Shown here: positions 43,771 to 57,136 of the stretch, piece after piece
Layout: every line of letters starts with the position of its first letter
Position numbering within the stretch: the stretch's first letter is position 1
Assembly (NCBI RefSeq): GCF_000737325.1
Contig: NZ_CP011125.1
Location: 8,742,001-8,806,000 of the forward strand
Origin: Sandaracinus amylolyticus
GTDB lineage: Bacteria; Myxococcota_A; Polyangia; Polyangiales; Sandaracinaceae
Direction of reading: 5' to 3'
DNA: 64,000 nucleotides
The notes under the pieces: generated by a model
Told to the model about the DNA's origin: nothing
Database searches by the model: none
The model's input: the letters and a program-made list of their open reading frames with translations, nothing else
Made by a program: the position numbers and the translations under genes

Positions 43771-44573
43771 TGCGCACGCTGATCCTCTCGCGCCGCCACA
43801 CCCCCGACTCGCAAGCGCTGTGGCGCGCCGCGGTCGATGCGGGCTGGGACGTGGTGCGCGCCCAGCGCTACGCCGTCCCGCCGGAGCTCGCGGGGCGCAC
43901 CGACGTCGCGTTCTACGCCGAGACGTTGCTCGCGGACGCGCTGGCGCCCGAGCTCGGCGTGGTGCTGCTCGAGCCCGACGTGCGGTGGCTCGCGGAGCTG
44001 CCCTCGGCGTACCGACTGCGCGAGATCCGCGCGACCACGCTCGCCGCGGTGCGCGAGGTGCGCGAGCGCGCGTTCGTCAAGCCGGCGGACGAGAAGGTGT
44101 TCGCGGCGCGCGTGTACGAGCCCGGCGAGCGCATCGACGAGCACCACGCGCTGCCCGACGCGCTCCCGGTGCTGGTCTCGGAGCCGGTACGGTTCGAGAT
44201 CGAGGTGCGCGCGTTCGTCGTCGATCGCGAGGCCGCGACGCTCTCGGCGTACGTGCGCGACGGCGACATCGCGCGCGCCGAGGACGGCACGTGGCCGCTC
44301 GACGCGCGGGATCGCGAGGACGCGATCACGTTGCTCGCGTCGCTGCTCGCCGATCCCGAGGTCGCGCTCCCGCCCGCGGTGGTGATCGACGTCGGCCGCA
44401 TCGAGGGTCGCGGCTTCGCGGTGGTCGAGGCGAACGCAGCGTGGGCCGCGGGCATCTGCGGCTGTGATCCCGACGCGGTCCTCCGCGCAGTGGCGCGCAC
44501 CTGCGTGCCCACGTCGTCGCTCGACGACATCACACGCCGCTGGGCGCGCGCCGCCTCGCTCGCGATCGAGTGA
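43770..44573 (+). CDS. ATP-grasp domain protein (DUF4343-like)
   Basis: A 267-residue protein. The N-terminal third has an alpha/beta region, followed by ATP-grasp-type features: AFVKPADEKVFAARVYEPGE near 108, with the nucleotide-binding Lys, the RFEIEVRAFVVDREA strand pair near 147, and VVIDVGRIEGRGFAVVEANAAWAAG near 210-235 with the metal-binding Glu and Asn. It probably ligates or phosphorylates a small substrate; the acceptor is not identifiable. Its last ~115 codons and the DNA downstream are partly duplicated at 44834-45385. Confidence 0.85.
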   Translation: MRTLILSRRHTPDSQALWRAAVDAGWDVVRAQRYAVPPELAGRTDVAFYAETLLADALAPELGVVLLEPDVRWLAELPSAYRLREIRATTLAAVREVRERAFVKPADEKVFAARVYEPGERIDEHHALPDALPVLVSEPVRFEIEVRAFVVDREAATLSAYVRDGDIARAEDGTWPLDARDREDAITLLASLLADPEVALPPAVVIDVGRIEGRGFAVVEANAAWAAGICGCDPDAVLRAVARTCVPTSSLDDITRRWARAASLAIE

Positions 44574-44590
44574 GGTGATCAGCGAACGCG

Positions 44591-44793
44591 GGAACAGCCG
44601 TGCACGTGCACGTGGCGCGTGGACGATTCACGACGCGGTGGGGTGCAACGGCGGCGCCGCGCTCCGCACGACACGCCGCGTGCGGTCGCGACGTCGCGCG
44701 GCGTCACGCGCGGGAGAAAGGGCCCGCGATCGGGCTGGCCGAGTCGTGACTCGTACACGTGCACGTGCCACGTGTCACGTGCACGGCTGTTCC
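44591..44793. repeat. MITE-like element with inverted ends, copy 1
   Basis: The left end GGAACAGCCGTGCACGTG (44591-44608) is the exact reverse complement of the right end (44776-44793); the match continues for eight more bases after one inserted base. The element is 203 bp, rich in CACGTG words and carries no gene. It starts 18 bases after the stop of the ATP-grasp gene. A second copy lies at 45122-45330. Non-coding, hairpin-ended and present twice, it resembles a miniature transposable element, but both copies could have arisen from the one local duplication. Confidence 0.65.
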
Positions 44794-44833
44794 ACCGCAG
44801 GCGACCGCTCGCGCCGTCAGCGATCGTGCGGGG

Positions 44834-45104
44834 GCGACGCTCTCGGCGTGCGTGCGCGACGGGCGACATCGCGAGTCACTGCTCGCGCGAGGTCGCGCTG
44901 CCGCCCACGGTGGTGATCGACGTCGGCCGCATCGAGGGTCGCGGCTTCGCGGTGGTCGAGGCGAACGCAGCGTGGGCCGCGGGCATCTGCGGCTGTGATC
45001 CCGACGCGGTCCTCCGCGCAGTGGCGCGCACCTGCGTGCCCACGTCGTCGCTCGACGACATCACACGCCGCTGGGCGCGCGCCGCCTCGCTCGCGATCGA
45101 GTGA
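44834..45104 (+). pseudogene. Partial duplicate of the ATP-grasp gene
   Basis: From 44834 the sequence repeats the ATP-grasp gene from 44235 onward, with about 68 bases missing between the CGACATCGCG block and the TGCTCGC block. From 44890 it matches 44359-44573 at a fixed distance of 531 bases with only a few changes, and ends at the same stop codon (45102-45104). It retains only about the last 65 codons intact, including the EANAAWAAGICGCDPDAV motif, and has no start or ribosome site of its own. A decayed tandem copy. Confidence 0.85.
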
Positions 45105-45121
45105 GGTGATCAGCGAACGCG

Positions 45122-45330
45122 GGAACAGCCGTGCACGAGCACGTGGCACGTGCACGTGGACGATTCACGACGCGGTGGGGTGCAACGCCGGCGCCGCGCT
45201 CCGCATGACACGCCGCGTGCGGTCGCGACGTCGCGCGGCATCACGCGCGGGAGAACGGGCCCGCGATCGCGCTGGCCGAGTCGTGCCTCGTACACGTGCA
45301 CGTGCCACGTGTCACGTGCACGGCTGTTCC
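45122..45330. repeat. MITE-like element with inverted ends, copy 2
   Basis: A 209-bp near-copy of the element at 44591-44793, again 18 bases after a copy of the ATP-grasp stop codon, with a six-base expansion in the CACGTG-rich left end. The right end CACGTGCACGGCTGTTCC is unchanged. The spacing from copy 1 is 531 bases, the same as that of the flanking duplicated gene, so this copy came with the local duplication. The rest of the gap to 45511 holds only a possible promoter. Confidence 0.65.
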
Positions 45331-45433: not shown

Positions 45434-45468
45434 TTGACAGCCGCCCTCCGACGTCGTTGGATGGCGGC
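45434..45468 (+). promoter_or_regulatory. Possible promoter and dyad ahead of the nuclease/repeat operon
   Basis: TTGACA at 45434-45439 is a perfect -35 hexamer; TTGGAT follows after 17 bases as a weak -10. Between them GCCGCCCTCC and GGATGGCGGC form a dyad matching at nine of ten positions. If used, transcription would start near 45470, which favours the GTG at 45512 as the first start codon over the ATG at 45461. Sequence match only. Confidence 0.35.
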
Positions 45469-45511: not shown

Positions 45512-46525
45512 GTGCGGAAGAGCGTTCTGAATCTGGTCGCCCTGCTCGTGCTCGCCCTCGCGCTCGGGAGCTCGGCCGGCACCCCATCGCACGCGATCGC
45601 CGACGAGTGGACGCGCGTGTTCGTCAACGGCCAGCTCGTCCCGGTGCGCTTCAACGACGGCGACAGCTTTCGCGTGCAGGGCGGTCCGCTCGCGGGCTCG
45701 CAGTGCCGCCTCGGCGGGTTCAACACGCTCGAGAGCTTCGGCCCCGCGCACCAGTGGGGCGACTGGCATCCCTACGAGCTCTTCGTGATCGCCAAGCAGG
45801 CGCTGGCCAACGGTCGCCGCGGCACCTGGCACTGCACGACCGACGGCAACCGCGACGGCTACGGGCGCCTCCTCATGGACTGCCCCGACCTCGCGATGAG
45901 CCACATCTCGCAGGGCCTCGCGATGGCCTACATGGTCGACGACAGCCCGACGCGCCCCGAGTACATCCGCGCGCAGCGCGAGGCGATCGAGAACCGCCGC
46001 GGCATGTGGGCCCACGGCGTGCCCGACTACGTGATGACCTCGGTGCACTCGGCGGACGAGGACCCGAGCCGCGAGCACCACTACAACCGCCTCATCTCGA
46101 CGCACGACGGCCACTCGGAGTCGATGCAGCACAACGACACCTACGCGGAGTGCGCGTGGGTCTGCAACGACGAGATCCGCGCCGACGAGCGCGCCGTCGA
46201 GGCCAGCGCGCGCCGGGTGCGCGAGGACGCGACGCTCGCGCCGCTCGCCGCCGACGTGCCGAACTACCAGCTGCTCGAGATGGTGCGCCGCTACGCGCGC
46301 CTCGGAGAGCTCCCCGAGTACACGCCGTCCGCGCTCGCCGAGCCGCTGCGCGCGCGCCTCGCGTCGGAGCGCACGTCGGGGCAGCTCGGACAGACGCGCA
46401 CGGAGCGGGGCTCCTGCATGATCGCGGTCCCGTTCGGCCGCTGGTACGGGCGCGAGCGCGCGACCTGCCTGCGCGGTCACGGCACCGCGCCCGACGGCAC
46501 GCGCTGGTCGCACGCATCCCACTGA
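45512..46525 (+). CDS. Secreted SNase-like nuclease
   Basis: A 337-residue protein from the GTG at 45512, which has a GGAG site nine bases upstream; an ATG at 45461 would add 17 residues. A signal peptide (LNLVALLVLALALGSSAG) precedes a staphylococcal-nuclease-like domain at about 35-180: VRFNDGDSFRVQGG, CRLGGFNTLES, and DGNRDGYGRLLMDCPDL, with several added cysteines. The C-terminal half (about 190-330) is helical with Cys pairs and no known domain. Probably an exported nuclease that needs calcium. First gene of a five-gene operon to 51741. Confidence 0.82.
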   Translation: MRKSVLNLVALLVLALALGSSAGTPSHAIADEWTRVFVNGQLVPVRFNDGDSFRVQGGPLAGSQCRLGGFNTLESFGPAHQWGDWHPYELFVIAKQALANGRRGTWHCTTDGNRDGYGRLLMDCPDLAMSHISQGLAMAYMVDDSPTRPEYIRAQREAIENRRGMWAHGVPDYVMTSVHSADEDPSREHHYNRLISTHDGHSESMQHNDTYAECAWVCNDEIRADERAVEASARRVREDATLAPLAADVPNYQLLEMVRRYARLGELPEYTPSALAEPLRARLASERTSGQLGQTRTERGSCMIAVPFGRWYGRERATCLRGHGTAPDGTRWSHASH

Positions 46526-46556
46526 CATCGCTGCTCCCCGCGGCACCTGCTGAAAA

Positions 46557-48410
46557 GTGAATCGCTTGGACCTCCGACGTTCTCGTGTGTCGATCGCGGC
46601 GCTGCTCGCGCTGTCCGCCGCGCTCGTGCCCGGATGCTTCGATCCGGACCTGATCCCCGAGGGCCCGCCGCTCGGCTACGAGACGGACGAAGAGACGTGC
46701 CAGAACGGGCACGACGACGACTTCGACCGCCTCGTCGACTGCCTCGACGAGGACTGCATCATGCGCGGCTGGTGCGACGAGATCATCCGCCAGGTGCCGA
46801 CGATCGAGCCCGAGGACGACGCGGTCTCGTGCAGCGATCGCATCGACAACGACGACGACGGCCAGTTCGACTGCGGTGATCGCAGCTGCCAGGGGATCCT
46901 CGAGCTCTGCTGCTCGATCGAGCTCAGCGACGAGCTCTGCAGCAACGGCTTCGACGACGACGGCAACGGCTTCGCGGACTGCGCGGACAACGGCTGCCGC
47001 AACAACGCGTTCGTGACGGTCTGCGACCGCGAGACCGACTGCGCCGACGATCGCGACGACGACGGCGACGGCATCTTCGACTGCGACGACACCGACTGCG
47101 CGACGGCCGCGGTCTGCACCGGCGGCGAGCTCGACTGCGGCAACGGCGCCGACGACGACGACGACGGCGCGACCGACTGCCGCGACCCCGACTGCCGCAC
47201 GAGCGCGGCGTGCCAGGGCGCGGAGGACACGATCGCGCGCTGCAGCGACGCGGTCGACAACGACGGCGACATGCAGATCGACTGCGCGGACCAGGAGTGC
47301 GCGACCAGCACGGACATGCGCATCGTGCTGTATTGCGACGGCCGCAACGGGCCGGAGAACACGCTCGATCGCTGCATGGACGGCGTCGACAACGACGCGA
47401 ACAACTTCGTCGACTGCGCCGACTTCGGGTGCTCGCGCGCGACCGACCCCGCGATCGCCGAGTACTGCACGAGCGTCCTCGAGAACACGCTCGAGCGCTG
47501 CATGGACGGCGTCGACAACGACCGCAACGGGTTCGTCGACTGCAACGACTTCGGCTGCTCGCGCGGCACGCCGGACATCGTGGAGTACTGCGCGGAGGCC
47601 GACGAGACGTCGCTCGAGGAGTGCCGCGACGGCATCGACAACGAGGGCGATCGCTTCATCGACTGCGCGGACTTCTCCTGCACGATGGTCGATCGCGGCG
47701 CGTCGCCGGAGGCGGTCGAGTACTGCACGAGCCGCGCGGAGACCGACCTCACGCGCTGCACCGACGGCATCGACAACGACGGCAACGGCTTCGCGGACTG
47801 CGGCGACTTCTCGTGCTCGCGCTCGACGGATCGCGCGATCGTCGCGGCGTGCCGGCTCCAGGGCGAGCGCAGCTTCGATCGCTGCCGCGACGGGCGCGAC
47901 AACGACGGCAACGGGTTCGGCGACTGCTCGGACTTCTCGTGCCGCGACGTGGTCGACATCTCGTTCACGATCGCGCTGCCGTGCACGGTCGGCGAGGCGT
48001 GCGCGCTCGGCGACGGCACGCCGGCGCACTGCTACGCGGCGACGAGCGAGGATCGACCCGACGAGCCGCTGACGGTGTGCGCGGTGATCCGCGCGCCGTG
48101 CCGCGAGAGCGCGGTGTTCGAGCAGCCGCTGCCCGAGCTGAGCGGCGGCTACGTCCTCCAGGACCCGGCCCGCCAGGCGCGCGACGCGTGCTGCGATGGC
48201 GTCGACGGCGACGGCGACGGCTTCGCCGACTGCGAGGACTGGGACTGCAACTGGGATCCGCTCGCTCGCAGCGAATGCGTCAACGTTCCGCGGCAGGTCT
48301 GCGACGAGGACAGCGACTGTCCGCCTTGCGGTCGGGGTCGCTGCGGAGAGCCGACCGAGCCCGACGGCGTTCGCCACTGCGAGATGCTGATCGCTCCGAT
48401 CTGCGGCTGA
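46557..48410 (+). CDS. Surface lipoprotein with twelve D-x-D-x-D-G cysteine-framed repeats
   Basis: A 617-residue protein with a signal peptide ending LVPGC (lipobox). Twelve units of the type C-x-DGIDNDGNGF-x-DC follow between about residues 48 and 560, for example CMDGVDNDRNGFVDC and CTDGIDNDGNGFADC. The Asp pattern is that of EF-hand-like calcium loops, and the motif is the MopE-type metal-binding repeat; flanking Cys pairs probably form disulfides. A non-repeat insert (about 480-530) precedes the last unit. The next gene encodes a barrel with three of the same units. Confidence 0.9.
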   Translation: MNRLDLRRSRVSIAALLALSAALVPGCFDPDLIPEGPPLGYETDEETCQNGHDDDFDRLVDCLDEDCIMRGWCDEIIRQVPTIEPEDDAVSCSDRIDNDDDGQFDCGDRSCQGILELCCSIELSDELCSNGFDDDGNGFADCADNGCRNNAFVTVCDRETDCADDRDDDGDGIFDCDDTDCATAAVCTGGELDCGNGADDDDDGATDCRDPDCRTSAACQGAEDTIARCSDAVDNDGDMQIDCADQECATSTDMRIVLYCDGRNGPENTLDRCMDGVDNDANNFVDCADFGCSRATDPAIAEYCTSVLENTLERCMDGVDNDRNGFVDCNDFGCSRGTPDIVEYCAEADETSLEECRDGIDNEGDRFIDCADFSCTMVDRGASPEAVEYCTSRAETDLTRCTDGIDNDGNGFADCGDFSCSRSTDRAIVAACRLQGERSFDRCRDGRDNDGNGFGDCSDFSCRDVVDISFTIALPCTVGEACALGDGTPAHCYAATSEDRPDEPLTVCAVIRAPCRESAVFEQPLPELSGGYVLQDPARQARDACCDGVDGDGDGFADCEDWDCNWDPLARSECVNVPRQVCDEDSDCPPCGRGRCGEPTEPDGVRHCEMLIAPICG

Positions 48411-48452
48411 GCGCGACTCGTCATTCGATTTTCAGGGAGAGAGACGGTTCCG

Positions 48453-50147
48453 ATGAAGCACCTCCGACTGCGCGGCGCGGCCGCGCTCCTCCTGCCCGTG
48501 ATCGCGCTGGCGATCGCCTGCCCGCCAAGCGCCGCGCGTGCCCAGGACACGACGACCGAGCCGACGACGCCGGAGCCGCCCGCGGAGAGCTCGCCCGAGA
48601 CGACGCCCGCGACCTCGCCGACGCCGACGAGCACGAGCGAGACCGTCTGCAACGATCGCCGCGACGACGACGGCGACGGCCTGGTCGACTGCGCGGACGC
48701 GGAGTGCTTCGAGAACGACCTCTGCCACGCGGGCGGCGGCGAGGAGCGCACCAGCGCGGCGTGCAGCGACTGGATCGACAACGACGGCGACCAGATGGTC
48801 GACTGCGAGGACGCCGACTGCCAGACCCCGCAGATCGCGGCGTGTCAGGGCAGCTGGCGCGGCGGCGCGCAGGCGAGCGGCGGCGCGGCCGGTGGTGCGG
48901 CGGCGGTCGGCGAGGAGGACCTCCCGGAGCTCGGCGAGGGCCAGAGCGTCGAGGATCTGATCGGCCGCGGCGGTGACGCGAACGGCGAGCGCACCGACGA
49001 GCTGTGCAGCGACGGCATCGACAACGACTTCGACGGCCGCAGCGACTGCGCGGACTTCGGGTGCCGCTTCGATCCCCAGGTCACGGTGTGCAACGGCACG
49101 CCCGGCCTGCGCTTCTCGGTGGTCGCGGGCGTCGGCGCGAACATCGGCTGGGACTACGACCAGTCGGGCAGCGAAGAGCGCATCACGAACACGCCCGAGG
49201 CGGGCTTCACGCTGCTCCAGCTGCGCGCGCTCGGCCCGATCCCGTTCATCGAGAACTCGTTCTTCCTCATCAACGTGCGCGCCGAGGATCGCGTCCGCCT
49301 GACGTTCGCGAACTTCCAGATCCCGATCTCGGATCTCGGCCACTACATCTCGATCAACAGCGGCTTCGGCGGTCTGTCGCCGGGCCTGATCATCTCGGCG
49401 GCGCGCCAGCCGCTGCTCGATCCGCCGTTCTACATGTACCGCGCGTTCGAGCAGGGGAACGGCGCGGCCCTCGAGGTCGGCGGTCCGATCGACGAGCGCG
49501 GCGTGATCCGCTTCCGCGCGTGGGGCGCGGCGGGCGCGGGCGAGTTCACCGGCAACGTCGGTGGTCGGTTCTTCCGCAGCGACGATCGCAACTTCGCGTG
49601 GGCCGCGGGCGGCGCGTTCCAGTTCAACCTGATCGGGTTCTTCGATCGCTTCGACTCGCCGTTCCTCTACACCGCGGTGCCGCTCACGTGGGGCGTCGCG
49701 GTCGGCGGCAAGTACGACCAGCGCCCGGCCGAGCGCTTCGCGGCGACGAACGCGTTCTCGCTGCTCCAGGTCTGGCACTTCTCGCTGCGCGTCGAGAACT
49801 ACACGCGCTTCGTGATGGACGATCCGCAGACCATCCCGGTGCAGAGCGCGTTCAACGTGCAGCTCGGCGTGCTGCTGATCCCGCGCGTGCTCTTCTTCGC
49901 GGCGGACGTCGGCGGCGTGTGGCAGGTCCAGCCGTGGTCGACGGGCGCGGAGCCGACGAGCGATCCGAGCTATCGCGAGCAGCTCGACACGTTCCAGTGG
50001 CGCGCGGCGCTGCACTGGTACTTCTTCCGCAGCACCGGGATCCTCGCGGTCATGTACCGCGAGGCGCACAACGAGGAGAACCCGTCCGACGAGGACGCGC
50101 CCGAGCTCGAGCGCGAGCTGCGCCTCGAGGCACGGTTCCGCTTCTGA
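48453..50147 (+). CDS. Outer-membrane beta-barrel with N-terminal calcium-type repeats
   Basis: A 564-residue protein with a signal peptide (ALAIACPPSAARAQ), a Thr/Pro-rich spacer, then three cysteine-framed repeats (CNDRRDDDGDGLVDC, CSDWIDNDGDQMVDC, CSDGIDNDFDGRSDC) at about 65-205. Residues 215-564 form alternating amphipathic strands and finish in RFRF, with the C-terminal Phe that marks outer-membrane barrels. It resembles phosphate-selective or general porins. The repeats are the same as those of the lipoprotein encoded upstream, so the two may bind each other through calcium. Confidence 0.88.
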   Translation: MKHLRLRGAAALLLPVIALAIACPPSAARAQDTTTEPTTPEPPAESSPETTPATSPTPTSTSETVCNDRRDDDGDGLVDCADAECFENDLCHAGGGEERTSAACSDWIDNDGDQMVDCEDADCQTPQIAACQGSWRGGAQASGGAAGGAAAVGEEDLPELGEGQSVEDLIGRGGDANGERTDELCSDGIDNDFDGRSDCADFGCRFDPQVTVCNGTPGLRFSVVAGVGANIGWDYDQSGSEERITNTPEAGFTLLQLRALGPIPFIENSFFLINVRAEDRVRLTFANFQIPISDLGHYISINSGFGGLSPGLIISAARQPLLDPPFYMYRAFEQGNGAALEVGGPIDERGVIRFRAWGAAGAGEFTGNVGGRFFRSDDRNFAWAAGGAFQFNLIGFFDRFDSPFLYTAVPLTWGVAVGGKYDQRPAERFAATNAFSLLQVWHFSLRVENYTRFVMDDPQTIPVQSAFNVQLGVLLIPRVLFFAADVGGVWQVQPWSTGAEPTSDPSYREQLDTFQWRAALHWYFFRSTGILAVMYREAHNEENPSDEDAPELERELRLEARFRF

Positions 50148-50165
50148 GCGGACGAGAGTGAGGAC

Positions 50166-50801
50166 GTGGTGCTCCGCTTTTCGAATCGCGCACTGATCGC
50201 GCTGCTGCTCGGGCTGACCGGCTGTCTCGGTGAGCCCGAGCCGGTGGACGACGGCACCTACGACCCCGAGGTGGGCAACCTCTTCGAGGGCTCGATCCAG
50301 CTCTCGGACCAGCGCGTGCTCGAGCTCGAGGCGAGCGATCTCCCGTCGACTCCCGCGCCCTGTCAGCCGCCGCAGCGCGTCGTGATCACGAACATCACCG
50401 ACGGCGACACGTTCGCCGCGGTGCGCGAGTCCGACAGCCAGCCGATCGACGTGCGCATGATCGGCGTGGACACCCCGGAGACCGAGAAGCGCAACGACGA
50501 GACCGGCGAGATCACGCCCGCCGAGTGCTACGGCAACGAGGCGTGGGCGTTCACCGAGCTGCTGCGCGGGCGCTACGTGTGGCTGACGTACGACGCGGAG
50601 TGCCAGGACCACTTCGGTCGCGACCTCGCGTACGTGTGGGTCGGCTCGGGGCCGGGCGACATGTGGAACCGGCAGCTCGCGGCGCGCGGCTTCGCGGAGC
50701 CGCTGACGATCGAGCCGAACTCGTCGAACGCGCCGGTGATCGCGGAGGACAGCGCGGCGGCGCAGGCGGCGGGGCTCGGGCTCTGGTCGGCGTGCGAGTG
50801 A
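50166..50801 (+). CDS. SNase-like nuclease lipoprotein
   Basis: A 211-residue protein with a lipobox-ended signal peptide (LLLGLTGC). The staphylococcal nuclease fold is clear at about 70-200: NITDGDTFAAVRE, VRMIGVDTPETEK with the Arg and Asp catalytic positions, ECYGNEAWAFTELLRG, and DHFGRDLAYVWVG. Cysteines are added in pairs. It would cut DNA or RNA outside the cytoplasm in a calcium-dependent way. A second GTG at 50169 is possible. The fourth gene of the operon, separated from the barrel gene by 18 bp. Confidence 0.9.
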   Translation: MVLRFSNRALIALLLGLTGCLGEPEPVDDGTYDPEVGNLFEGSIQLSDQRVLELEASDLPSTPAPCQPPQRVVITNITDGDTFAAVRESDSQPIDVRMIGVDTPETEKRNDETGEITPAECYGNEAWAFTELLRGRYVWLTYDAECQDHFGRDLAYVWVGSGPGDMWNRQLAARGFAEPLTIEPNSSNAPVIAEDSAAAQAAGLGLWSACE

Positions 50802-50805
50802 CGCC

Positions 50806-51741
50806 GTGAGGCGCGCGGTGATCGCGCTCGCGATGCTGGGCGTCGCGAGCGCGTGCACCTGCGAGCCGGCGCACACGCCCGAGGTCGAGGTCGAGGTCGT
50901 CGATGTCCCGCGCGACGCGCTGCCGCGCGCGCGACGCGGCGATCTCCCCGCGGCGACGCCGATGGTGACCCTCGAGGTGCGCGAGGACGGCTTCACCGTC
51001 GACAACCGCGCGCTGATCGCGACGTGGCCGGAGCGCGATCGCGCGCGCCTGTCCGACGCGGAGATCCACGCCGAGGTCCCGGTGGCGAGCGAGGCGCTCG
51101 AGGTGCCCGCGCTCTCCGAGGTGATGGCGCGCGCGCGACGCACCGAAGAAGCGCGCGCGGAGGGCGGAGGCACGCCCATCGCGTACGCGCTGCGAGCGGC
51201 CCCCGAGGTGTCGTGGCGGCGCGTATCGCAGGCGATGTGGAGCGCCGGGCGCGAGGGCTGGGCCGAGCCGCGGGTCGTGCTGCTCGACGGCGAGCGCGAG
51301 GTCGTGCTCGCGCTGCCGCCTTCGCACCGCGGTCGGCGCGCCGACGTCGAGCGCGAGGTCGCAGCCGCGCTCGAGGCGCTCGGCGAAGGCACACCGCGGC
51401 GCGAGGGCGCGACACGCCACGCCGAGGTCGAGCCCGCGTCGCCGTCGATCACGATCACCGCAACGCTCGACGTGCAGGTGACGCTCCGAGGCGAGCCTCT
51501 CGCACCCTCGTGCGACGCGGTGTCGCCGTCGGCGCCCGCGATCCCGGCGCGCGAGCGTCACGTCGACGTCGACGCGCTCGCGCGCTGTCTCGACGCCGCG
51601 CGCGCGACCGCGACGCTCGCGCCCGACGAGCGCGCGCTCTTCGCGGTCGCGGCGGCGCCGAGCGTGCAGTTCGGCGAGATCACCGCGGTGCTCGAGACGC
51701 TCGCGTCGCGCGGCGAGATCGCGATCCGCGCGACGCCCTGA
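50806..51741 (+). CDS. Lipoprotein, last gene of the nuclease/repeat operon
   Basis: A 311-residue protein whose signal peptide ends GVASAC, a lipobox. It starts with GTG four bases after the preceding stop. Residues 50-75 (VTLEVREDGFTVDNRALIA) recall the periplasmic strand pattern of ExbD/TolR, and the pattern seems to repeat near 140-165 with VVLLDGEREVVLAL, but the rest is Ala/Glu/Arg-rich helix without a recognised fold. It is envelope-located; a part in energising transport through the nearby barrel is only a guess. Confidence 0.72.
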   Translation: MRRAVIALAMLGVASACTCEPAHTPEVEVEVVDVPRDALPRARRGDLPAATPMVTLEVREDGFTVDNRALIATWPERDRARLSDAEIHAEVPVASEALEVPALSEVMARARRTEEARAEGGGTPIAYALRAAPEVSWRRVSQAMWSAGREGWAEPRVVLLDGEREVVLALPPSHRGRRADVEREVAAALEALGEGTPRREGATRHAEVEPASPSITITATLDVQVTLRGEPLAPSCDAVSPSAPAIPARERHVDVDALARCLDAARATATLAPDERALFAVAAAPSVQFGEITAVLETLASRGEIAIRATP

Positions 51742-54059: not shown

Positions 54060-54402
54060 AACCCCGCCGCCACGAAGACGACGCGCGTCGCGAGGCCGCG
54101 AGCTCGGGCGCTCGCACGGCGATGTCCGCGCGCGACATGGCTCCGCGACCGCTCGCGCCGCGATGTCCGCGCGCGACATGGCTCCGCGACCGCTCGCGCA
54201 GCGATGTCCGCGCGCGACATGGCTCCGCGACCGCTCGCGCAGCGATGTCCGCGCGCGACATGGCTCCGCGACCGCTCGCGCCGCGATGTCCGCGCGCGAC
54301 ATGGCTCCGCGACCGCTCGCGCAGCAATGTCCGCGCGTGACACGGCGTCTGGCCGTCCGGGAACGGTGTCGTCGTCGGCGCGCTCGCGCCGGTCGCGCGT
54401 GA
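54060..54402. repeat. 41-bp tandem repeat array (six copies at 54121-54350)
   Basis: The unit begins GATGTCCGCGCGCGACAT and occurs at 54121, 54162, 54203, 54244, 54285 and, with changes, 54326, always 41 bases apart. Each unit contains the dyad ATGTC-CGCGCGC-GACAT and the block GCGACCGCTCGCGC. No gene is seen in the whole gap from 54060 to 54402. It lies between two minus-strand genes, upstream of the metallopeptidase gene and downstream of the FGE-domain gene. There are no variable spacers, so it is not a CRISPR array. Confidence 0.92.
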
Positions 54403-55602
54403 TCACTCCGCCGGCAGCGTGCGGACGAGGCGCAGGCCGACGACGTTCTCGCGCATGTCGAAGCGACGCGCGCCGCGGTTCGCGCTGCGACACGCGAAGT
54501 CGCCGAACGCGAACGACCCACCGCGGATGACACGCGTGGTGCGCGTCCCGAAGGGCCCGACCGGATCGACCTGCGCGCCCGCCGGATACTCGTCGTAGCC
54601 GTCCCAGACCCACTCGTAGACGTTGCCCGTCATGTCGTGGAGCCCCCACGGGTTCGCGGGCTTCTGCGCGACGGGGTGGGTCACGCCGGCGCCGTTGCTG
54701 GTGCACCAGCCGATCTCGTCGACGCGCTCGATGTCGTCGCCGATCGGAAAGGCAGTGCGCGATCCCGCGCGCGCGGCGTACTCCCACTCGGCCTCGGTCG
54801 GGAGGCGATATCCCTCGCAGTCGAGCCCGCGGAATTCGGCGCGCGAGCACTGGAAGCTGCCGGGGCACATGCTCCACGTCCCGGGCACTTCGGTGGGATC
54901 GGGGCAGCCCTCGCCGAGCGCGCCGGTGCACGCGAGGTCGTAGCAGCGCGGCAGGCCTTCCGCGTCGCTCATGCGGTTCGCGAGCTCGAGCGCCTCGAAC
55001 CAGCTGATCGACTCGACGGGGCACTCGTCACCGCAGCTGCCGAAGTAGCTCGGTCGTGTGCCGGTGAGGCGCTCCCAGAGGCCCTGCGTGACCTCGGTGC
55101 GCATCACCCAGAACGGCCGCGTGAGGGTCACGACGTGCAGCACCTCGTCGTCCTCGCGGCCGCGCTCGCCGGGCGGCGAGCCCATCGAGTAGGGCTCCGG
55201 CTCGAGCACGACGCCGCCGCAGCCGCACTCGGCGTCGTCGCAGTCGGTCGCGCCGTCGCACTCGTTGTCGACCGCGTCGTCGCAGATCTCGGGAACGCCG
55301 GGCCGCACGTCGGGAGCGGTGTCGTCGCAGTCTCCGCCCTCGGTCACGGCGCCCGCGGGGAGCGAGCACCCTCGCACTGGCTCGGCGCCGAATCCGTCGC
55401 CGTCGACGTCGCGGAAGAACGTCTGGAGCACGCCCTCGTCGACCTCGCCGTCGCAGTCGTCGTCGACGTCGTTGCAGCGCTCGACCTCGCACGCGCCGGC
55501 GTCCTGCCGGGCGAGCGACGCATCGTGCGCGACGACGTCGATCCCGCTGCGCGCACCACACGCAGCGAGGAGCAGGAACATCGGGAGCAGCCGAGCGCTC
55601 AC
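54403..55602 (-). CDS. FGE-sulfatase-domain lipoprotein with D-x-D-x-D-G repeats
   Basis: A 399-residue protein with a lipobox (MFLLLAAC). Residues 35-125 carry calcium-type repeats (CNDVDDDCDGEVDEG, RDVDGDGFG, CDDAVDNECDGATDC). Residues 135-395 are a formylglycine-generating-enzyme (SUMF1-like) domain: FWVMRTEVTQGLWERL, PVESISWFEALELANRMS, YRLPTEAEWEYAARAG, DMTGNVYEWVWDG and TRVIRGGSFAFGDFACRSAN. Only the second of the two active-site cysteines of true FGE is present. Its GTG overlaps the stop of the DUF2063 gene, placing it in the MNIO operon. Probably not a true sulfatase activator. Confidence 0.9.
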   Translation of the reverse strand: MSARLLPMFLLLAACGARSGIDVVAHDASLARQDAGACEVERCNDVDDDCDGEVDEGVLQTFFRDVDGDGFGAEPVRGCSLPAGAVTEGGDCDDTAPDVRPGVPEICDDAVDNECDGATDCDDAECGCGGVVLEPEPYSMGSPPGERGREDDEVLHVVTLTRPFWVMRTEVTQGLWERLTGTRPSYFGSCGDECPVESISWFEALELANRMSDAEGLPRCYDLACTGALGEGCPDPTEVPGTWSMCPGSFQCSRAEFRGLDCEGYRLPTEAEWEYAARAGSRTAFPIGDDIERVDEIGWCTSNGAGVTHPVAQKPANPWGLHDMTGNVYEWVWDGYDEYPAGAQVDPVGPFGTRTTRVIRGGSFAFGDFACRSANRGARRFDMRENVVGLRLVRTLPAE

Positions 55603-56309
55603 GCGCGAGACCCGAGCAGCGCGCCCGCTTCGAGCAGCGCGGTCAGCAGGGCGCTCATCTTCTCGACGAACGCCTGATCCGGCGCGCGCCCTTCGGCGGC
55701 GAGCACCTCGCGCACTCCGTCGATCGCGGGACGATCGCCGCGTGCCCACGCGCGCACCAGCGCGAACGACGTCGCATCGAGCGTGCGCGTCTCGACCACG
55801 TGATCGGGACGTCGATGCACGCAGACGAAGAACGCGCCCGCAGGCGGAGGCTCGACGTCCCGATGCACCGCGTGGCCGAGCGCGAGCACGCGCAACGTGG
55901 GGTGCGCGACCGGGATCTTCTCGAGATCGAGCTCGACGACGTCGCCGTGCACCTCGCCGGCGCGCCACGCGAGCTCCCATCTCGTCGACTCGAGGAGCAG
56001 CACGTCGCGCGCGTGGCCCTCGACGCGCGGAAGCGCGAACGCGACGAGCTCGGGGATCACCTCGCGGAAGAAGCGCGAGCGCGGCGGCGCCTCGGCGAGG
56101 AACGCATCGAAGAGCGCGCTGGTCCGCGCGCGTCCGAGCGCGGCCTCGGTCTTCGGGAGCACCTTCGAGACGAGCTCGCGCAGCCGCGAGCGCACGAGCT
56201 CGCGATAGAGGAGCGCACGCTCGCTCCCCACGAGCGCCAGGTCCTCGCGCGACGGAGCGGCGTCGAAGCACACGCGCTGCATCGCGCGCTGCAGATCGGC
56301 GACCGTCAC
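55599..56309 (-). CDS. DUF2063-type partner protein of the MNIO enzyme
   Basis: A 236-residue protein. The N-terminal helical domain (about 5-95: TVADLQRAMQRVCFD, ELVRSRLRELVSKVLPKT, RSRFFREVIPELVAFALP) matches the DUF2063 domain that accompanies DUF692 enzymes in bufferin/HvfC-type clusters and recruits the precursor peptide. The C-terminal half is alpha/beta without a known motif. The GTG at 56309 overlaps the stop of the MNIO gene, and its own stop overlaps the FGE gene start, so three genes are coupled in a row. Confidence 0.87.
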   Translation of the reverse strand: MTVADLQRAMQRVCFDAAPSREDLALVGSERALLYRELVRSRLRELVSKVLPKTEAALGRARTSALFDAFLAEAPPRSRFFREVIPELVAFALPRVEGHARDVLLLESTRWELAWRAGEVHGDVVELDLEKIPVAHPTLRVLALGHAVHRDVEPPPAGAFFVCVHRRPDHVVETRTLDATSFALVRAWARGDRPAIDGVREVLAAEGRAPDQAFVEKMSALLTALLEAGALLGSRA

Positions 56310-57136
56310 GTGCGTGCTCCGTCCGCGATCGCGCGGAGGCGTCGCAGCTCGTCGAGCAGCACGTCGAGCGAGGGGAAGTTCCCGTCGCGCTCGAGCAGCA
56401 CCGGCACGTCGGGCATGCGCGCGAGCGTGTGCCCGAGCAGCGCATAGACGTCGTCGCAGACGGGCTCGGCGTGGGTGTCGATGATCGGCTGTCCCGTGCG
56501 CACGAGGTGCCCCGCGACGTGGATCTGCACGACGCGATCGGCAGGCACGCGATCGAGGTACGCGCGCGCGTCGAACCCGTGGTTGCGCGCGTTCACGTAG
56601 ACGTTGTTCACGTCGAGCATGAGCCGGCACCCGGAGCGCTCGAGCACCTCGAGCACGAAGTCGATCTCGCGCATCTCCGGCGCGCCGGGGTGCACGTAGT
56701 AGCTGACGTTCTCGATCGCGATGGGCCGCCCGATCGCGTCCTCGACCTGGGCGATGCGCGCGCACGCGACGTCGACCGACTCGCGCACGAAGGGCATCGG
56801 CATGAGGTCGTGCAGCGCGACTCCGTCGACGCCGCCCCAACAGAGGTGATCGCTGTACCAGGGCGCGTCGATCGCATCGAGGAACGCGCGGAGCGTGCGG
56901 AGGTACGCCGGCTCGAAGGGCTCGATCGAGCCGAAGCAGAGCGAGAGCCCGTGGGGCACGACCGGCCAGACCGCGCGGGCGTCGGCGAGGTGTCGCTCGA
57001 AGGTGCCGGCGCGCTCGACGTAGTTCTCGGGGTGGATCTCGACCCACTCGATCTCCGCGGGCCGCCGCGCGAGCATCTCCGCGGCGATCTCCTGCCGCAG
57101 ACCGAGCCCGATCCCTCGTGCTTCCTTCGCTGCCAT
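56306..57136 (-). CDS. MNIO (DUF692) peptide-modifying iron oxidase
   Basis: A 276-residue TIM-barrel enzyme of the multinuclear non-heme iron oxidase family (MbnB, TglH, BufB). Iron ligands are all visible: HPENYV near 46, SDHLCW near 108, AIENVSYYV near 157, LMLDVNNVYVNARNHG near 185, QIHVAGH near 218 and DTHAEPV near 234. Relatives use the irons to rearrange cysteine residues of ribosomal peptides. AGGAG precedes the ATG. It is encoded between the cysteine peptide gene (95 bp upstream) and the DUF2063 partner, the standard arrangement. Confidence 0.94.
   Translation of the reverse strand: MAAKEARGIGLGLRQEIAAEMLARRPAEIEWVEIHPENYVERAGTFERHLADARAVWPVVPHGLSLCFGSIEPFEPAYLRTLRAFLDAIDAPWYSDHLCWGGVDGVALHDLMPMPFVRESVDVACARIAQVEDAIGRPIAIENVSYYVHPGAPEMREIDFVLEVLERSGCRLMLDVNNVYVNARNHGFDARAYLDRVPADRVVQIHVAGHLVRTGQPIIDTHAEPVCDDVYALLGHTLARMPDVPVLLERDGNFPSLDVLLDELRRLRAIADGART

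Follow-up and report, generated by a model that had tools for sequence, protein, structure and literature searches.

The DNA analysed here, a 64,000-nucleotide stretch of Sandaracinus amylolyticus contig NZ_CP011125.1 (positions 8,742,001 to 8,806,000; the window), carries five genes at 45512-51741 that raise the question of why two nucleases, a repeat-bearing lipoprotein and a porin-like barrel should be encoded side by side. An earlier note on this DNA had read them as an operon for a surface machine that binds calcium, degrades extracellular DNA and imports the products or phosphate. We found that the conserved core is not five genes; it is the first three, which encode the nuclease SN1, the repeat lipoprotein and a 16-strand barrel. 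Judged from its sequences, this trio, shared by many myxobacteria and relatives of theirs, probably acts in the cell envelope on DNA or on what DNA is broken down to, and it is possibly linked to DNA import. The reading that we favour, tentatively and at somewhat less than an even chance, is that genes 1-3 form an outer-membrane-associated nuclease-porin module leaning to DNA that enters the envelope.

The five genes and their conserved core

We identified five open reading frames (ORFs) on the + strand, each ending at an in-frame stop, and reproduced the coordinates and close spacing reported before (gaps of 4-42 bp; in gene order 31, 42, 18 and 4 bp). The start codons (GTG, GTG, ATG, GTG and GTG for genes 1-5) are plausible choices. 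Lipobox-like cysteines in genes 2, 4 and 5 and signal-like N-termini in genes 1 and 3 were read from the translations. The genes are:

45512..46525, + strand: gene 1, SN1, 337 aa; divergent SNase-type protein, secreted or periplasmic, with an N-terminal signal-like segment, a predicted SNase fold at about residues 38-167 and an extra C-terminal part
46557..48410, + strand: gene 2, lipoprotein, 617 aa; lipobox VPGC and 12 acidic double-disulfide repeats
48453..50147, + strand: gene 3, outer-membrane barrel, 564 aa; signal-like segment, low-complexity linker, three repeats and 16 predicted strands from residue 220
50166..50801, + strand: gene 4, SN2; accessory lipoprotein nuclease with lipobox LTGC and a PF00565 match
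50806..51741, + strand: gene 5, 311 aa; probable lipoprotein (ASAC) without a family of its own

A full-length barrel was recovered at E <=1.2e-149 from 17 of 56 searched genomes, that of S. amylolyticus included. In all 16 relatives, each represented by one fetched region, SN1, the lipoprotein and the barrel stand in this order on one strand, and the flanks are not common beyond part of the gene set. SN2 follows the barrel in nine of the 15 relatives having sequence there (among the 16, locus L036 ends at the barrel and L045 has less than 1 kb after it), and gene 5 is present in five of the 16, counts that rule out the five-gene unit as a conserved entity. The same-strand run of the proposed operon stands; its conserved part shrinks to genes 1-3, with SN2 and gene 5 as local additions to the trio.

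A search of public genomes with SN1 gave 98 relatives, of which 80 were kept; their titles are mostly Myxococcota or older delta-proteobacterial names, including Plesiocystis, Enhygromyxa, Paraliomyxa and Nannocystis. The trio order was seen in 66 of these 80 loci, equal to 66 of the 68 with room to show a barrel; 12 of the 14 loci without one end within 2.3 kb of SN1, and the other two (L078 and L102) have room yet lack it. SN1 and the barrel share a strand in all 66 trio loci, where the barrel bears three repeats in 64 cases, two in one and four in one, and the lipoprotein bears 8-18 (7-18 by a looser count). The earlier note had made its proposal depend on a gene order kept in relatives, and such an order is what the 16 relatives and the 68 testable loci display.

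In a sample of 377 genomes of the phylum, 77 carried SN1 (E <=1.8e-50) and 60, from 16 families, carried the barrel. Every one of the 60 barrel genomes carries SN1, which lies 1.7-3.1 kb upstream on the same strand in 56 and on a separate contig in the remaining four. SN1 occurred without the barrel in 17 genomes; most of these have a shorter SN1 whose alignment covers only the profile up to about position 217 and its final section. No repeat protein was found beside stand-alone SN1 genes in 12 fetched regions or in L078 and L102.

Each part of the trio has known relatives, and the trio itself is without a name in the family libraries used. Our literature search, which covered few subscription journals, found no publication on an SN1-lipoprotein-barrel module. 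The retention of a nuclease, a repeat lipoprotein and a porin side by side over 16 families strongly suggests that they work together, in a role that the family names do not reveal.

Some loci showed further features. SN1-type nucleases without repeat proteins or a barrel nearby were seen in L138-L149, four of which (L138, L139, L143 and L148) have other neighbours in common. In nine loci (L071, L072, L073, L076, L084, L086, L088, L095 and L104), the strand opposite to the trio encodes, close by, a member of a protein family of about 240-330 aa; two members run against Pfam gave no match. As the contig of L109, titled as a Klebsiella pneumoniae metagenome-assembled genome, carries a myxobacterial trio, the name of that record is probably wrong.

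Repeats, nuclease folds and barrel

The NCBIfam model NF033662, 'acidic double-disulfide repeat' (curated cut-off 41 bits), matched 12 stretches of gene 2 (264.7 bits) and three of gene 3 (92.7 bits), and an independent pattern count returned the same 12 and three copies, as first noticed from the sequence. The barrel repeats have their first cysteines at residues 66, 104 and 185, and all twelve cysteines of the three repeats are invariant in 53 of 53 barrels. Teneurins were the sole solved sequence relatives of the repeat that we found: they account for 13 of 13 sequences at E <=1 in a PDB search with the barrel profile (teneurin-4 C-rich domain, E 4.2e-7), and a single-sequence search with the lipoprotein retrieved 7plp, the human teneurin-4 C-rich domain (E 4.8e-4). 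In that domain, according to its description, three Ca2+ are bound via eight acidic residues and there are three disulfides (PMC9058538). Its acidic-ligand and cysteine spacing matches that of the repeats in genes 2 and 3, the 15 of which retain five to eight of the eight ligand positions; all eight are acidic in lipoprotein repeat 4 and barrel repeat 1, and seven in each of barrel repeats 2 and 3. Unlike the teneurin domain, a single copy with six cysteines, the repeats have four framing cysteines, lack the third disulfide and form tandem arrays of 3-18 in bacterial envelope proteins. The homology lends backing to the calcium type proposed in the earlier note: calcium binding is a well-motivated prediction for the repeats, and the number of ions may be lower in the several lipoprotein repeats that keep five ligands.

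The nuclease assignment of gene 1 draws on a structural model. SN1 scored 19.6 bits against PF00565, below the curated cut-off of 21 bits, and 55 of 72 SN1 homologues matched this family at E <=0.01. Since the SN1 profile retrieved nothing from the PDB, we used fold comparison. Residues 38-167 of the predicted model (mean predicted local distance difference test score, pLDDT, 93.8) adopt an SNase (OB) fold with a Z score of 12.7 and a root-mean-square deviation of 2.8 over 114 residues, and all 72 SN1 proteins compared keep the equivalents of D19, D21, R35, E43, D83, Y85 and R87. Residue roles and numbering follow S. aureus nuclease; the numbering is consistent with the PDB alignment. The C-terminal part of SN1 (about residues 173-337), searched as part of the whole model, had no structural match among those listed.

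SN2 matched PF00565 at 53.9 bits. R35, E43, R87 and D21 are conserved in nine of nine SN2 proteins and D40 in eight of nine, the SN2 of the window having the Asp, which marks SN2 by sequence as an ordinary SNase that lacks none of these residues. Genes 1 and 4 thus encode the two SNase-type proteins noticed from the letters, and both keep R35, E43, R87 and D21; loss of the catalytic residues would have spoken against the earlier proposal. Within the SNase family (PF00565; S. aureus Nuc, B. subtilis YokF/YncB and Haloferax Hvo_1477), SN2 is a plain member. SN1 shares the fold and the equivalents of R35, E43, R87 and D21, whereas it differs in having Asn for D40, an extra C-terminal part and mostly the same two neighbours.

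The barrel is present in single copy in the S. amylolyticus genome, a single contig of 10,327,335 bases. In its predicted model (mean pLDDT 79.2) the first of 16 strands starts at residue 220, and a long stretch that includes a short helix separates strands 5 and 6, where porins have their constriction loop. Foldseek returned porins in general, and structural comparison placed the Pseudomonas phosphate and polyphosphate porins OprP/OprO first (Z 25.2-25.3), followed by PorB (22.9). The barrel shares 16 strands with OprP/OprO and differs from them in its N-terminal calcium-type repeats, an identity of about 10% and its lack of a porin Pfam match, none having been obtained at E 0.1 for 36 barrels. 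The modelled fold is thus in keeping with the porin-like barrel described previously. A barrel with an even number of strands has both termini in the periplasm, so the three barrel repeats should be periplasmic; they, and perhaps the whole complex, are likely on that side of the membrane. The surface placement suggested earlier is thereby the less likely one.

Proposed function and its alternatives

From gene content, order, conservation, repeat identity, catalytic residues, predicted folds and the comEC neighbourhood, we infer calcium binding, nuclease activity, a periplasmic side, docking, a pore substrate and a link to import. In the nuclease-porin module that we favour, SN1 would cut DNA or RNA in the envelope, on the periplasmic side of the outer membrane, and the repeat lipoprotein, anchored in that membrane, would hold SN1 as a calcium-stiffened scaffold. 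The barrel would form an OprP/OprO-like 16-strand pore whose three repeats, facing the periplasm and matching those of the lipoprotein, may dock it onto the scaffold, and nucleotides or phosphate would pass through the pore as products. Where the module stands beside the single comEC and ExbB/ExbD, as it does in one family, it would act on DNA that is on its way into the import route or has been discarded from it. The trio would thereby join the DNA-handling envelope nucleases, here with the addition of a dedicated porin and a calcium-type scaffold.

The link to import comes from the surroundings of the trio. Neighbour clustering of the 80 SN1 loci and the window revealed a ComEC gene (Competence and metallo-beta-lactamase domains) after the barrel on the same strand in L070, L098, L105, L115, L116, L122 and L124. 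ExbB, ExbD and ExbD precede SN1 as a full set in nine loci (L098, L105, L109, L111, L115, L116, L118, L122 and L124) and as partial sets in L070, L080 and L121; four of the seven ComEC and six Exb proteins were run against Pfam, and the others were assigned via their BLAST cluster. A directed ComEC search of the 60 barrel genomes gave one match each in 58. In 19 genomes ComEC starts 0.75-2.0 kb beyond the barrel and is read in the same direction; all 19 belong to one family, f26, which has 21 barrel genomes; in the other two, comEC is on another contig. The comEC link thus holds for one family, was not observed in any other, and serves as a pointer and not as proof. The comEC and ExbB/ExbD surroundings point to DNA import as much as to phosphate feeding. 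ComEC-based natural DNA uptake resembles the module through the comEC directly downstream of the trio in f26 and differs from it in the missing linkage elsewhere; no pilus, ComEA or DprA genes were found among the annotated recurrent neighbours.

Several observations weigh against the favoured module and its tie to import. The S. amylolyticus comEC lies 3.3 Mb from the trio, and outside f26 the contigs of the other 39 barrel genomes show no comEC beside the module. Because the gaps between barrel and comEC in the named loci measure 0.1-1.2 kb, a shared transcript is only putative. In the 377-genome sample, 31 SN1-type matches do not stand beside a barrel; four are in barrel genomes with split contigs, and 27 were seen without the module alongside. 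Asn occupies the D40 position, that of a calcium ligand in SNase, in 72 of 72 SN1 proteins and also in 14 inspected SN1 sequences without the module. The inward-facing positions of the barrel, assigned crudely from strand parity and not from model coordinates, number 12.3 basic against 9.2 acidic; with a pore only mildly basic, anion selectivity is not evident. As to an arginine ladder and phosphate selectivity of the OprP/OprO kind, 15 R/K positions of the window barrel are basic in at least 80% of 53 rows, and the inward charge is almost balanced. The repeat is also frequent across the S. amylolyticus genome, where NF033662 has 60 matches in 20 open frames (none of 14 control genomes has any), which makes its sharing by genes 2 and 3 less striking than the fixed gene order.

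As to purpose, sequence alone does not decide between food, phosphate, transformation and defence. A rather unlikely alternative is that the genes scavenge phosphorus at the cell surface, with outward lipoproteins, degradation of extracellular DNA and an OprP-like pore importing nucleotides or phosphate, comEC being incidental. In its favour, the barrel is closest in fold to OprP/OprO, the lipoprotein nuclease SN2 has a full complement of catalytic residues, and the Haloferax SNase-type lipoprotein Hvo_1477 is required for growth on DNA, chiefly as a phosphorus source (PMC3929857). In the available part of that source Hvo_1477 is a putative lipoprotein nuclease, and no dedicated porin is mentioned alongside it. 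Surface scavenging sits poorly, however, with barrel repeats that should be periplasmic, with 36 barrels lacking a Pfam porin family match, with the weak basicity of the pore and with the absence of phosphate genes among the annotated recurrent neighbours.

The nuclease-porin module could be taken further, as an unrecognised outer-membrane or periplasmic part of a Myxococcota DNA-import pathway in which a calcium-scaffolded complex trims DNA before or during ComEC transport, vents or recovers nucleotides of the discarded strand and is driven or positioned in some lineages by ExbB/ExbD-type proteins. We regard this fuller version as unlikely. If the module is as we propose, it would show how some Gram-negative bacteria could couple envelope DNA cutting with product passage, and would give a testable starting point for studying how myxobacteria take up DNA or feed on it.

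It is quite improbable that SN1 is not a working nuclease at all and serves instead as a nucleic-acid-binding or structural protein in an outer-membrane assembly of porin and lipoprotein that calcium stabilises. The constant D40-to-Asn change, the extra C-terminal part, the PF00565 score under the cut-off and the five to eight acidic ligands per repeat fit such an assembly, but the invariant R35, E43, R87, D21 and Y85 exceed the needs of a binding role. That the nucleases form an envelope barrier, destroying phage or foreign DNA as it comes in through the periplasm while the porin vents the products, is highly improbable: envelope nucleases with complete catalytic triads and a match of SN2 to the PADLOC candidate model 'SNc+LTD' would suit it, but that match reflects the common SNase domain (SN1 itself, E 0.0071) and defence genes are absent among the annotated recurrent neighbours.

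Accessory genes and surrounding sequence

Beside the favoured nuclease-porin module, SN2 would be a further nuclease of like kind, gained in Sandaracinaceae and some relatives. SN2-like nuclease domains also lie divergently upstream of SN1, on the - strand, in three distant loci (L085:2741-3178, L093:1274-1681 and L123:4599-5015), so the locus accommodates a second nuclease in different arrangements. Three of six gene 5 homologues match ExbD weakly (best E 6.9e-4), and comparison of the gene 5 profile with ExbD proteins of comEC-type loci gave a probability of 2%.

A sigma-70 promoter scan at the locus detected no promoter, and a terminator-like hairpin directly before SN1 (45452-45468) is at chance level. 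Further upstream, at 44370-45130, the 3' end of an ORF and the sequence following it occur twice in tandem about 530 bp apart (near 44370 and 44900). Downstream, a tandem array of a 41-bp unit (54109-54346; 5.8 copies, 95% matches) reads through several frames. The ORF at 54403-56445 on the - strand, whose translation contains acidic D-x-D-x-D-G-like stretches, resembles a sulfatase-modifying-factor domain.

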